A stretch of 33,959 nucleotides of DNA from Pseudomonadota bacterium (GTDB lineage Bacteria > Pseudomonadota > Alphaproteobacteria > Acetobacterales > Acetobacteraceae). Position numbers and translations under genes: made by a program. Below, one piece after another: positions 4,249 to 10,185 of this stretch. The notes beneath the pieces were generated by a model, which saw only the letters and a list, made by a program, of their open reading frames with translations, had not been told where the DNA came from and made no database searches. Position 1 is the stretch's first letter. Each line of letters begins with the position of its first letter. Location of the stretch: the NCBI GenBank assembly GCA_018240635.1, contig JAFEFJ010000010.1, positions 1 through 33,959 on the forward strand. The letters run 5' to 3'.

Positions 4249-4313
4249 GGGAAATGATTTCCCAAATTCCCCGGTTGCATGGGTCGGCGTATTGTTCTGG
4301 GAAGTTTTGTCCC
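4249..4313. promoter_or_regulatory. Paired GGGA-N7-TCCC palindromes upstream of carA
   Basis: Two 15-bp inverted repeats lie between the GFA gene and carA. The first, GGGAAATGATTTCCC (4249-4263), is a perfect palindrome around one central base. The second, GGGAAGTTTTGTCCC (4299-4313), keeps only the outer GGGA/TCCC. Their centres (4256 and 4306) are exactly 50 bp apart, near five helical turns, so both would face the same side of the DNA. The second ends 13 bp before the chosen carA ATG. They could be operators for a dimeric regulator; the helix-turn-helix fused to CarA is a candidate by position only. Confidence 0.45.
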
Positions 4314-4326
4314 GTATTTGGTGGGC

Positions 4327-5682
4327 ATGCATGTAGATGACATCATCGACCGGCTGGGCGGCCTGGACGCGGCGGCGCGGCTGACCGGCGTGGGGACCGA
4401 GGCGGTCCGCAAGTGGCGGCAGGCCCGCGGCATCCCGGCCCGCCACTGGCCCGCGGTGATCGCCGCGACCGGGCTTTCCATCGACGATCTTCAGGGCGAT
4501 GCGGTTCCCGCCCCGGCGGTCCACGATCCCGCGCGCGCGCCCGACGGCGCCACCGCCGCGCTGGTGCTGGCCGACGGCAGCGTGTTCTGGGGCAAGGGCT
4601 TCGGCGCGCATACCGACGCCCCGGCCCCGGTGGGCGAGGTGTGCTTCAACACCGGCATGACCGGCTATCAGGAAACCCTGACCGATCCGTCCTATGCCGG
4701 GCAGATCATCACCTTCACCTTCCCCCATATCGGCAATGTCGGCGCCAACCCCGAGGATGTGGAGGCCGGGTTCGTCGCCGCCCGCGGGCTCGTGGTGAAG
4801 CAGGACGTGACCGAGCCCTCCAACTGGCGGGCGATGACCGACCTGCCGGACTGGCTGCGCCATCGCGGCATCCCCGGCATCGCCGGGGTGGACACGCGCG
4901 CGCTGACAGTCCGCATCCGCGACGGCGGCGCGCCCTCGGGCGTGCTGGCCTTCCCGGCGAACGGGCGCTTCGACATCCCCGCGCTGGTCGAGCAGGCGGC
5001 GGCATGGCCGGGGCTGGAGGGCATGGACCTCGCGAAGGACGTGACCTGCCGGCAGACCTACGAATGGGACCGCACGCGCTGGTCCTGGCCGGAGGGCGCG
5101 GGGAAGGTGTCCGCGCCGCGCCATCACGTCGTGGCGGTGGATTACGGCGCCAAGCACAACATCCTCCGCTGCCTCGCCTCCGCCGGCTGCCGCGTGACCG
5201 TGGTGCCCGCGACCGCGACGGCCGAGGACATCCTGCGCCATAAGCCGGACGGCGTCTTTCTGTCGAACGGCCCGGGCGACCCGGCGGCGACCGGAGCCTA
5301 CGCCGTCGCGCCGATCCGCGCGGTGATGGACGCGGGCATCCCGCTGTTCGGCATCTGCCTGGGCCACCAGTTGCTCGCGCTCGCGCTGGGCGGGCGCACC
5401 TACAAGCTGGCGCGCGGCCATCGCGGCGCGAACCAGCCGGTGAAGGACCTGACCACCGGCAAGGTGGAGATCACCAGCCAGAACCACGGCTTCGCGGTGG
5501 ACGAGACCTCGCTGCCCGCCGGCGTGACGCCGACGCATGTCTCGCTGTTCGACGGCAGCAACGAGGGCCTGGCCTGCGCCGACCGCCCCGTGTTCAGCGT
5601 GCAGTACCATCCGGAAGCCAGCCCCGGTCCGTCCGACAGCCGCTACCTGTTCGAGCGGTTCGTGGGGATGATGGGTGGGTAG
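4327..5682 (+). CDS. carA: Carbamoyl-phosphate synthase small (glutaminase) subunit with N-terminal helix-turn-helix
   Basis: Hydrolyses glutamine and passes ammonia to CarB for carbamoyl phosphate, which feeds pyrimidine and arginine synthesis. The chosen 451-residue reading starts at ATG 4327; an in-frame ATG at 4279 would run through the upstream palindrome region. The CarA small-subunit domain begins near residue 74 ([14 protein letters not shown]). The class I glutaminase triad is intact: C344 in GICLGHQ, H428 and E430 in HPEAS. Residues 1-50 ([16 protein letters not shown], then a [14 protein letters not shown] stretch) are extra and look like the short Cro-like helix-turn-helix known as the carph-isopro domain, joined through an Ala/Pro linker. 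I infer moonlighting DNA binding; the enzyme assignment itself is firm. There is no clear Shine-Dalgarno at normal spacing. Confidence 0.93.
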
Positions 5683-5725
5683 TTTGAAAGAGTTTACCGG
5701 AATTTCCGGTAAACTCGGATAAACT
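5681..5725. promoter_or_regulatory. Four-half-site symmetrical operator candidate before the AAA+ ATPase gene
   Basis: The core is a perfect palindrome with 13-bp arms, GAGTTTACCGGAA (5690-5702) and TTCCGGTAAACTC (5704-5716), around T5703. Outside it, AGTTT recurs at 5681-5685, ten bases before the inner AGTTT (5691), and AAACT recurs at 5721-5725, ten bases after the inner AAACT (5711). All four half-sites are therefore symmetrical about 5703 with one-turn spacing. The element begins in the carA stop codon and ends 8 bp before the ATPase ATG. It has no T-run, so it is better read as a protein-binding site, probably controlling the ATPase gene and, through it, carB. Confidence 0.65.
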
Positions 5726-5733
5726 CGATCAAT

Positions 5734-6939
5734 ATGGACGAGAACAGAAATCCATTCGTGCCGGGTGCCGGCACACAGCCGCCTGAACTGGCCGGCCGGT
5801 CCGACCTGATCAAACGCGCGGAAGTGACGTTAGAGCGTATGGCCGCCGGTCGCTTCTCTAAGAGCATGATCATCATTGGATTGCGTGGCGTCGGGAAGAC
5901 CGTACTACTCAATCGGTTTAGAGAAAGCGCGCGGGAGCGCGGATATGCCGACGCCTATGTGGAAGCTCATGAGCAAAAGCTGCTTCCAGAGCTACTCGTT
6001 CCGGAGCTTCGCCGCATAATCCTCGAACTTGATCGCCTGGGGGCCGTGGAGCAGACGGTCAAGAGGGCATTGCGTGGACTTCGAGGCTTCATGTCTGCGT
6101 TCAAGCTCTCTTACGCCGGCTTCGATCTTGGCATCGACCCGTTACATGGCGAGGCCGATTCAGGCGACTTGGAAGCCGACCTACCCAGCTTGTTCGCTCT
6201 TCTGGGCGAAGCTGCCCGGAGTCGTGGCCGTCTGGTGTCAATCTTCGTGGACGAAGTCCAATATCTTTCCGAGACGGACATGAGCGCGCTAATCATGGCG
6301 CTTCACCGGACTGCTCAGCAGAACCTTCCCGTCACCATGCTGGCTGCTGGTCTGCCGCAAGTCGTCGGCCTGACCGGACGCTCGAAATCCTACTCGGAAC
6401 GTCTGTTCGATTTCCCGGAAGCTGGGCCTCTTACACGAGAGGACGCGACAGCGGCTCTGACGGCGCCGACAGAAAGCCTCGGCGTTACTTGGTCCGCGGA
6501 CGCAGTGGCCACCGCCCTCGCAGCCACGCAAGGATATCCGTACTTCCTTCAGGAATGGGGCTATCAAACATGGAATGCCGCTCAAGGTAGTAGGATCGAG
6601 AAGGAAGATGTTGATCGTGCCACGAAAGAGGCAGTGAGCCGGCTCGATGCGTCCTTCTTTCGTGTACGTTTCGACCGACTTACGCCCGCGGAGCGAGAAT
6701 ATCTACGCGCGATGGCACAACTTGGGCCCGGACCACATCGATCAGGTGATGTCGCCGATGAGTTGGGCAAGTCCGTCATGCTCGTGGGGCCTCGCAGGGC
6801 AAAGCTAATCGCGAAGGGCATGGTGTACAGCCCTGCGCACGGCGATACCGCATTCACCGTTCCGATGTTCGATCAATTCATGGTCCGCGCCATACCGGAC
6901 TGGCCCATCGTGCAGCGGCGCCGAGGCGCCCGAGGATAA
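5734..6939 (+). CDS. AAA+ family ATP-binding protein with C-terminal winged helix, between carA and carB
   Basis: A 401-residue P-loop ATPase of unknown function. The N terminus (NPFVPGAGTQPPELAGR) is a signature I associate with a widespread group of stand-alone AAA/Orc-like ATPases. Walker A is GLRGVGKT (49-56) and Walker B is IFVDEVQYL (170-178). The last ~90 residues (LTPAEREYL to VPMFDQFMVR) resemble a winged-helix DNA-binding domain. There is no membrane segment or signal peptide. The gene has visibly lower GC and different codon choice (tta, aga, gta) than its neighbours, and it splits carA from carB; both suggest horizontal acquisition. It has no Shine-Dalgarno, lies 8 bp after a large palindrome and ends 3 bp before carB. 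A role in mobile-element control, stress or defence is possible but unproven. Confidence 0.85.
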   Translation: MDENRNPFVPGAGTQPPELAGRSDLIKRAEVTLERMAAGRFSKSMIIIGLRGVGKTVLLNRFRESARERGYADAYVEAHEQKLLPELLVPELRRIILELDRLGAVEQTVKRALRGLRGFMSAFKLSYAGFDLGIDPLHGEADSGDLEADLPSLFALLGEAARSRGRLVSIFVDEVQYLSETDMSALIMALHRTAQQNLPVTMLAAGLPQVVGLTGRSKSYSERLFDFPEAGPLTREDATAALTAPTESLGVTWSADAVATALAATQGYPYFLQEWGYQTWNAAQGSRIEKEDVDRATKEAVSRLDASFFRVRFDRLTPAEREYLRAMAQLGPGPHRSGDVADELGKSVMLVGPRRAKLIAKGMVYSPAHGDTAFTVPMFDQFMVRAIPDWPIVQRRRGARG

Positions 6940-6942
6940 CGC

Positions 6943-9900
6943 ATGCCCAAGCGCACCGACCTCTCCTCCATCATGATCATCGGCGCTGGTCCCATCGTGA
7001 TCGGCCAGGCCTGCGAGTTCGACTATTCCGGCGCGCAGGCCTGCAAGGCGCTGAAGGCCGAGGGGTACCGGGTGATCCTGGTGAACTCCAATCCCGCCAC
7101 GATCATGACCGATCCGGGCCTGGCCGACGCCACCTATGTCGAGCCGATCACGCCCGAGATGGTCGAGAAGATCATCGCGCGCGAGAAGCCCGATGCGCTG
7201 CTGCCCACGATGGGCGGGCAGACGGCGCTCAACACCGCGATGAAGCTCGCCGCCTCCGGTGCGCTGGAGCGACACGGCGTGGAGCTGATCGGCGCCAAGG
7301 CCGACGTGATCGACCGCGCCGAGGATCGCCTGAAGTTCCGCGACGCGATGGCGGAGATCGGCATCGAAAGCCCGCGCAGCGCCATCGCGCACACGATGGA
7401 CGAGGCGCGCGCCGCGCTCGCGCTCAGCGGCCTGCCCGCCGTGATCCGCCCCAGCTTCACGCTGGGCGGCACCGGCGGCGGCATCGCCTACAACCGCGAG
7501 GAGTTCGAGCAGATCGTCGCGGGCGGCCTCGAAGCCTCGCCCACCACCGAGGTGCTGATCGAGGAAAGCGTGCTGGGGTGGAAGGAGTTCGAGATGGAGG
7601 TGGTCCGCGACAGCGCGGACAACTGCATCATCGTCTGCTCGATCGAGAACGTCGATCCGATGGGCATCCACACGGGCGATTCCGTCACCGTGGCGCCCGC
7701 GCTCACGCTGACCGACAAGGAATTCCAGCGGATGCGCGACGCCTCCATCGCGTGCCTGCGCAAGATCGGCGTCGATACCGGCGGATCGAACGTTCAGTTC
7801 GCGGTCAATCCGGCCGACGGGCGCATGGTGGTCATCGAGATGAACCCGCGCGTCTCGCGCAGCTCCGCGCTGGCGTCGAAGGCGACCGGGTTCCCCATCG
7901 CCAAGATCGCGGCAAAGCTCGCGGTCGGCTACACGCTCGATGAGCTTGCCAACGATATCACCCGCGTCACGCCCGCGAGCTTCGAGCCCACCATCGACTA
8001 CGTGGTGGTGAAGATCCCGCGCTTCACCTTCGAGAAATTCCCCGGCACGCCCGCCCTGCTGACCACCAGCATGAAAAGCGTGGGCGAGGCGATGGCGATC
8101 GGCCGCTGCTTCGCCGAAGCCCTGCAGAAGGGCCTGCGCAGCATGGAGACAGGCCTGCATGGGCTCGATCCGGTGGAGCCGCCGGGCGATGGCGGGGCGG
8201 ATGCGTTCCGCGCCGTGCTGTCCGAGCCGCGCCCCGACCGGCTGCTGATGGCCGCGCAGGCGCTGCGCGCCGGTCTGTCGGTGGAGGACGTTCACGGCGC
8301 GACGAAGTTCGATCCCTGGTTCCTGCGCGAGCTTGCCCGCATCGTCGAAGCCGAGCAGGCGGTGGCCGCGACCGGGCTGCCCGCGCATCCGGCGGCGCTG
8401 CGGCGGCTGAAGGCGCTGGGCTTCTCCGACATCCAGCTTGCACGCATCGCCGACGTGCCCACCGCTGATGTCGCGGCGCTGCGCGAGCGGCTCGGCGTGC
8501 ATCCGGTCTACAAGCGCATCGACACCTGCGCCGCCGAGTTCGCCGCCGCCACGCCCTACATGTATTCCACCTACGAAGGCGGCTTCGGCGATCCGGTCTG
8601 CGAGTCCGATCCCACCGACAAGCGCAAGATCGTCATCCTGGGCGGCGGGCCGAACCGCATCGGCCAGGGAATCGAGTTCGATTATTGCTGCGTCCACGCC
8701 GCCTATGCGCTGCGCGAAGCCGGGTTCGAGACCATCATGGTCAACTGCAACCCGGAAACCGTCAGCACCGACTACGACACCTCCGACCGGCTGTATTTCG
8801 AGCCGCTGACCGCCGAGGACGTGATCGCGCTGGTCCGCCGCGAGCAGCAGCGCGGCACGCTGCTGGGATGCATCGTGCAGTATGGCGGACAGACGCCGCT
8901 GAAGCTGTCGCAGGCGCTGGAGAAGGCGGGCATCCCGATCCTGGGCACCAGCGCCGACGCCATCGACCTGGCGGAGGACCGCGAGCGCTTCCAGCAGCTA
9001 CTTCATCGGCTGGGGCTGTTGCAGCCGGAGAACGGCACCGCGCGCTCGGCCGATGAGGCGGAGGCGATCGCCGAGCGCATCGGCTATCCCGTGGTGATCC
9101 GCCCCAGCTACGTGCTGGGCGGGCGCGCGATGGAGATCGTCTACGACCGCGCCGGCCTGCACCGCTACATGCGGGAAGCGGTGCGCGTCTCGGGCGACAA
9201 CCCGGTGCTGATCGACCGCTACCTGAACGATGCGATCGAGGTCGATGTGGACTGCATCGCCGATGGCGAGAGCGTCTATGTCGCGGGCGTGATGGAGCAT
9301 ATCGAGGAAGCCGGCATCCATTCCGGCGATTCGGCCTGCGCCCTGCCGCCCTACACGCTGCCGCCTGCGATGGTGACCGAGCTGAAGGCCGAGACCGAGG
9401 CGATGGCGAAGGCGCTCGGCGTCGTCGGCCTGATGAACGTCCAGTACGCGATCAAGGACGACACGATCTACGTGCTGGAAGTGAATCCGCGCGCGAGCCG
9501 CACCGTGCCCTTCGTTGCAAAAGCGACGGGCGTTGCGGTCGCCAAGGTGGGCGCGCTGGTGATGGCCGGCCGCCGGCTGACCGAATTCGCGCTCGACGAC
9601 GAGGCGGTGGCCGCGCATGTCGCGGTGAAGGAAGCGGTGTTCCCCTTCGCGCGCTTCCCGAACGTGGACACCATCCTGGGGCCGGAGATGCGTTCCACCG
9701 GCGAGGTGATGGGGCTCGATCTCAGTTTCGAGCGTGCCTTCGCCAAGTCGCAGCTCGGCGCGGGGATCAAGCTGCCGGAATCCGGCACCGTGTTCCTGTC
9801 GATCCGCGACGCCGACAAGAAGGGCCTGCCCGCACTCGCGCGGCGGCTGACCGACATGGGCTTCGCCATCATGGCCACGCGCGGCACGGCGGCGCGCATC

Positions 9901-10185
9901 CGCGAGGCGGGATTGCCCGTCACCGTCGTGAACAAGGTGCTGGAAGGCCGGCCGCATTGCGTGGATGCGATCCTGTCCGGCGAGGTCCAACTGGTCATCA
10001 ACACCGCGTCCGGCCCGCAGTCGATCGCCGACAGCTTCGCCATCCGCCGCAGCGCGCTGACGCATGGCGTGCCGCACTACACCACCATGGCGGGCGCCCG
10101 GGCCGCGACGCATGCCATGGCCGCGCTGCGCGCGGGGACGCTTGAAGTCGCCCCGCTACAGTCCTACTTTCGAGGATCGTTCTGA
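6943..10185 (+). CDS. carB: Carbamoyl-phosphate synthase large subunit
   Basis: Makes carbamoyl phosphate from bicarbonate, ammonia and two ATP, with CarA supplying ammonia. The 1080-residue length is standard. Two homologous halves are visible. Each opens with a nucleotide/biotin-carboxylase-like segment ([19 protein letters not shown] near residue 11, and [19 protein letters not shown] near residue 565). Each has its own ATP-grasp core, including the glycine-rich loop [10 protein letters not shown] in the first half. The C-terminal methylglyoxal-synthase-like allosteric domain (about 940-1080) includes [13 protein letters not shown]. The start is only 3 bp after the upstream ATPase stop, so carB almost certainly shares that transcript. 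The sequence itself looks conventional and of host composition, unlike the gene before it. Confidence 0.98.

Follow-up and report, generated by a model that had tools for sequence, protein, structure and literature searches.

Why does a gene for a AAA+ ATPase lie between carA and carB in an Acetobacteraceae genome, and what is its protein likely to do there? The question was raised by a preliminary description of the 33,959-nucleotide stretch of DNA analysed here (the window), in which the gene was taken for an acquisition lodged in an essential operon. The open reading frames and their spacing agree with an intact gene at this position: all three genes are encoded on the forward strand, the ATPase gene begins 51 bp after carA and its stop codon lies 3 bp before carB, and its reading frame contains no frameshift or premature stop (Table 1). 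Its deviating composition is also borne out, as GC content falls to approximately 0.60 over positions 5501-7000 compared to 0.65-0.74 on either side, and GC and GC3 are 0.60 and 0.63 for the ATPase gene, compared to 0.72 and 0.91 for carA and 0.69 and 0.92 for carB. The gene is the sole copy in its genome.

Table 1. Features of the carA-ATPase-carB locus, in window coordinates.
Feature	Position	Strand	Basis
carA, carbamoyl-phosphate synthase small subunit, upstream neighbour	4279..5682	+	ORF
Putative leader operator, half-sites AGTTTG(5681)-AGTTTA(5691)-TAAACT(5710)-TAAACT(5720)	5681..5725	.	sequence, inverted repeat
Core palindrome GTTTACCGGAATTTCCGGTAAAC	5692..5714	.	sequence, RNA folding
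AAA+ ATPase with C-terminal winged helix, 401 aa, ATG start	5734..6939	+	ORF
Beta-strand plus Walker A (MIIIGLRGVGKTV, residues 45-57)	5866..5904	+	sequence, family alignment
Walker B region, SIFVDEVQ (residues 169-176)	6238..6261	+	D173, E174 invariant
Winged-helix domain, proposed half-site reader (residues ~316-387)	6679..6894	+	AlphaFold secondary structure, conserved block
carB, large subunit, downstream neighbour	6943..10185	+	ORF

The view that carA and carB are normally adjacent does not describe the family to which the window belongs (Acetobacteraceae-like), in which carA homologues are present in 99 of 100 genomes and the gap between the two genes is a variable slot occupied by several kinds of guest gene. 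Comparison of the car locus for empty sites, as had been proposed, found a gap of at most 50 bp in 26 of the 78 genomes with both ends resolved, a non-random sample made up of approximately one genome per genus together with genomes picked for carrying the ATPase. At 14 loci the gap is filled by an ORF of approximately 90 aa and at 12-13 loci by a pair of genes of 252 and 210 aa, with the ATPase or its remains found in a minority. This pair occurs in about a dozen related genera (L109-L112, L115, L120, L129, L132, L140 and L142); sequence reading alone suggests a short-chain dehydrogenase for the 252-aa product and a LysE-type exporter for the 210-aa one. Many genera also have a short conserved ORF (about 80-106 aa, motif IDEPxxxAxFxRF) immediately after carA, which sometimes precedes the ATPase (L050, L063, L064, L066, L071, L072 and L081). 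Across an even sample of 200 family genomes, the window's genome counted, 24 possess an ATPase homologue, with intact copies between carA and carB in 14 and fragments at that site in three more (G131, G138 and G195); in G098 and G198 an intact copy sits next to the remains of another. The gene is patchily distributed, in agreement with the preliminary description: most genera lack it, whereas that description would have been refuted by conservation throughout the order with normal composition.

Within this slot the ATPase appears to have a long history. In a tree of 103 homologues (constructed quickly, without bootstrap and with a midpoint root), all 30 car-located copies form a single clade with an SH-aLRT support of 99 and no member from elsewhere, which points to one entry into the slot. 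At least 15 genera carry the ATPase at the same carA-carB site within this one clade, ruling out a recent one-off capture and with it the one-off acquisition originally envisaged. Agreement between the ATPase tree and that of carA and carB extends over one entire genus together with its sister (L086 plus L094 and L190-L200). The two trees conflict at L002, at L082 and at L083/L085, a pair with 91% identity between its ATPases whose carAB genes are not sisters. We take these conflicts to mean that ATPases were exchanged in place now and then by way of the flanking genes, with hidden duplication and loss as the alternative. Together, these sequence comparisons argue for one old entry into the slot followed by many losses and some later exchange in place. 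Furthermore, the window copy occupies a long branch lacking close relatives, and of all 30 car copies it shows the largest GC3 deficit relative to the carA of its host, such that a later exchange in the window lineage is possible.

The encoded protein possesses the Walker A and B motifs noted previously (GLRGVGKT and IFVDEV), and the winged helix is recovered in an AlphaFold model generated from 39 homologues (pLDDT 90.8, pTM 0.88), in which an AAA+ core is followed by the winged helix and the fold stops with it at residue ~387, a C-terminal STAND sensor or repeat region being absent. Residues G49, L50, G52, G54, K55 and T56 are invariant across the 39 homologues, and the window ATPase has kept every family-invariant residue. 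A profile search of the 401-residue protein, suggested as a check, returned the generic Pfam domain AAA_16 (PF13191; E=1.2e-14; 55.7 bits, above the gathering cut-off of 32.6), and NCBIfam, PADLOC and PHROGs gave no match to a specific, named family. The archaeal ATPase_2 profile (PF01637) scored 27.1 bits, under its cut-off of 33.2 despite this group providing the closest folds, and ORC1/Cdc6 (TIGR02928) scored 27.1 bits, under a cut-off of 181.3. In the fold search the best matches were 2qen (Z 23.6), 2fna (Z 22.7) and ORC2 (Z 19.9), with STAND and TnsC proteins scoring lower.

A further feature of the locus is the DNA preceding the ATPase. The window leader, AGTTTG-AAAG-AGTTTA-CCGGAATTTCCGG-TAAACT-CGGA-TAAACT (gaps N4, N13 and N4), places its half-sites at a 10-bp spacing inside each arm around a dyad centre at about 5703, and its first half-site opens with the closing AG of the carA stop codon (TAG, 5680-5682). 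As RNA, the core palindrome gives a hairpin of -18.9 kcal/mol (z -4.6), and the inverted repeat could work in this form in the window; an RNA element was nonetheless rejected, since the leader has no Rfam match and no U tract and the family-wide 10-bp phasing points to DNA. No second copy of the core was found at up to 3 mismatches in either the window or the 4.47-Mb assembly, the self site being the only hit, and hence there is no regulon backing a wider regulator role. A simple scan, not decisive for this host, detected no consensus sigma-70 promoter in the leader.

The same architecture recurs before homologues from many phyla. Among 91 leaders, from homologues with usable upstream DNA, mean GC is 0.34, dyad symmetry is significant (mean z of 3.0 compared to 0.3 for 11 leaderless copies), and self-similarity has a maximum at lag 10 (t 9.5) and another at lags 19-20 (t 5.9 and 5.5). 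The information content of a joint palindromic motif is 8.9 bits, whereas shuffled controls give ~4.1; its TTTA/TTA cores lie at distances of about 8, 17 and 27 bp from the centre. The letters of the half-sites vary by clade (e.g. GTTAG, TATAAC, GATAAGAT and GCTAG), and in a few clades the sequence of the winged helix changes along with the half-site type, an anecdotal correspondence that serves as a lead rather than a test. Host-level GC is regained beyond about -80 on the upstream side and immediately past the ATPase stop, so that the unit appears to comprise an AT-rich leader of about 50-75 bp and one ATPase gene, ending at the stop codon of the latter. The distance from the stop codon of the neighbouring gene to the ATPase ATG is 62-93 bp for 17 of 22 same-strand upstream neighbours, which indicates that the leader usually starts at the preceding gene's stop codon. 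The 11 leaderless copies are all car-located, belong to one genus and start about 9-21 bp past carA; in this genus, where the ATPase and carAB trees agree, the leader is dispensable for retention of the gene.

Homologues of the ATPase were found at 45-61% identity in many phyla (47 loci) and on 118 plasmids. The family is not characterised by linkage to an essential operon, most of its members residing in unrelated contexts, whereas the lack of a known partner holds more widely: no conserved partner gene was identified across 73 loci, in which no neighbour family occurs more than four times, and the annotated plasmid neighbours differ. In G155, a member of the window's family, a second insertion of leader and ORF separates genes reading as proS and lolC, which lie as close as ~13 bp in its sister species; no target-site duplication is visible in this comparison, the sister species being only 80-85% identical. 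At L178:3766-6021 a Vibrio homologue forms a 1.49-kb cassette between 127-bp repeats that occur many times over in the record, and this plasmid cassette looks like part of an integron-like array. A further core operon appears to have been entered at L205, where the ATPase lies between the apparent 3' part of a 2-oxoglutarate dehydrogenase E1 gene and the 412-aa ORF that follows it. At L203 the ORF preceding the ATPase on the same strand has a 3' end that reads as endonuclease III. Copies from separate branches of the ATPase family immediately precede a UvrD-like helicase gene at L005, L029 and L201, a hint that the same defence operon has been entered more than once. Among plasmids, those of Sphingobium offered no clean empty site, and the difference seen on a Stutzerimonas plasmid (H83) amounts to the replacement of a larger segment. 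A phage origin was rejected: the sole phage match is MT837995 ('Bacteriophage sp.', an unverified faecal scaffold of 5.9 kb) at 40% identity, and IMG/VR contained no match to the ATPase.

Based on these findings, we consider it probable (at roughly 0.6) that the gene is a self-operated, single-gene unit that moves by horizontal transfer and encodes a DNA-binding ATPase of the SSO1545/ORC fold group, with its architecture suggesting both DNA binding and autoregulation. The winged helix would bind the half-sites in the unit's own leader, allowing AAA+ subunits to align on one face of the DNA helix along the 10-bp-phased sites, and the bound ATPase would set the expression of its own gene, most likely as a nucleotide-switched autorepressor. 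Such self-control through the leader would enable the unit to work at any landing site without a partner. The family spreads by ordinary horizontal transfer, on plasmids and in an integron cassette, and one clade would have settled between carA and carB in an Acetobacteraceae ancestor. The gap copy would then have been inherited, often lost and sometimes exchanged in place, recombination through the two flanking car genes being the probable route of exchange. In the leaderless genus the leader would have been lost, with the ATPase presumably read from the car promoter. The earlier suggestion of a selfish or defence gene divides: the selfish part gains some support from the wide horizontal spread and the self-contained leader, while the defence part gains little.

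Selection on the protein bears on several competing explanations. Across 12 pairs (NG86), dN/dS of the ATPase is 0.012-0.092, and within the leaderless genus it is 0.013-0.059 compared to 0.045-0.101 for carA. The protein is therefore strongly constrained with or without its leader, which argues against dead cargo and also against any need for the leader in what selection maintains. The idea of a foreign insert without function that the operon tolerates, to which the low GC in the window and the decayed copies in several genomes might otherwise be attributed, is largely refuted and barely credible, given this strong purifying selection in relatives, the intact frame and the retention of every invariant residue. 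The same measurements could be taken to favour a host regulator of the car operon, in which a nucleotide-sensing ATPase controls carB via the carA-ATPase junction, as the operator sits within the operon and the gene is kept leaderless between carA and carB in one genus's clade with dN/dS as low as that of carA. However, the family is mostly not found near carAB, carAB lacks the ATPase in most Acetobacteraceae, and the operator moves with the ATPase rather than with carAB; because leader and gene travel together without carAB, we regard a car-specific regulator as very unlikely.

Two further explanations were weighed. A single-gene anti-phage or anti-plasmid defence protein, that is, a STAND/ORC-like sensor ATPase transferred between hosts and kept by phage pressure, is consistent with a gene that is patchy, transferred and frequently lost while its protein is strongly conserved. 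In addition, a few copies lie inside apparent restriction-modification operons, as named from reading the sequences alone: the L005 copy between a type III-like methylase (before) and the UvrD-like helicase (after), those of L029 and L201 before related helicases, and that of L019 after an HsdS-like gene. PADLOC matches are nevertheless weak and generic (best E 4e-4, covering the P-loop region only), neighbours are mostly metabolic or plasmid genes, and no effector or sensor domain is present beyond the AAA+ and winged-helix domains; a defence role, though a fair competitor, is unlikely. A minimal transposable element, with the leader as a transposase-like binding end, might explain the compact insertions between adjacent genes, the occasional genomes with more than one unit and the TnsC- and MuB-like ATPases among the fold matches. 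We hold it to be highly improbable, since only the ATPase, with no nuclease or recombinase, lies between the host genes (car and proS-lolC-like), no linked DDE, serine, tyrosine or HUH recombinase was found and the 73 loci lack a widely shared neighbour, the symmetric DNA is confined to a single end, no target-site duplication is visible in the proS-lolC-like comparison, and none of the copies compared are near-identical to one another while lying at different sites.

These findings have several implications. A widespread family annotated only as 'ATP-binding protein' bears a conserved 10-bp-phased DNA site before its own gene, and with a likely DNA target in hand its function becomes directly testable. 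The locus also offers a case of an accessory gene shedding its own control region yet being kept in an essential operon, and in carAB, across a whole family, a core operon clearly acts as a docking slot in which accessory genes settle. More tentatively, and on balance doubtfully, the family may represent a class of one-gene selfish or defensive units in which an ORC-like ATPase recognises only its own phased leader, travels between phyla without a recombinase, enters operons at gene junctions and spreads further by recombination through flanking core genes. We found no published account of the ATPase family or of its carAB insertion, in a search that covered subscription journals thinly.

In comparison to known systems, integron gene cassettes are resembled by the one Vibrio homologue but not by the window copy, where no attC was found downstream of the ATPase and the 3-bp gap to carB leaves no room for one. 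The TnsC and MuB target-selecting ATPases of transposons have the AAA+ fold in common with the family (Z ~14-16), which in contrast has no shared transposase partner in the contexts examined. STAND ATPases such as MalT and mycobacterial IniR possess a related ATPase domain and the logic of a DNA-binding regulator, while the window ATPase has only 401 aa and no sensor or repeat domain; the ATPase domain of IniR has itself been compared with SSO1545 (PMC5760070). ORC1/Cdc6 initiators combine AAA+ and winged-helix domains with repeated sites beside the gene (Z ~16-20), although the ATPase family, found on chromosomes and large plasmids, gives no sign of an initiator role there. The archaeal ATPases SSO1545 (2fna) and PABY2304 (2qen) of the ATPase_2 group, despite 16% identity to the window ATPase and a sub-threshold PF01637 score, match nearly its whole chain; their AAA+ core precedes a C-terminal domain, which can be superposed on that of the window ATPase.
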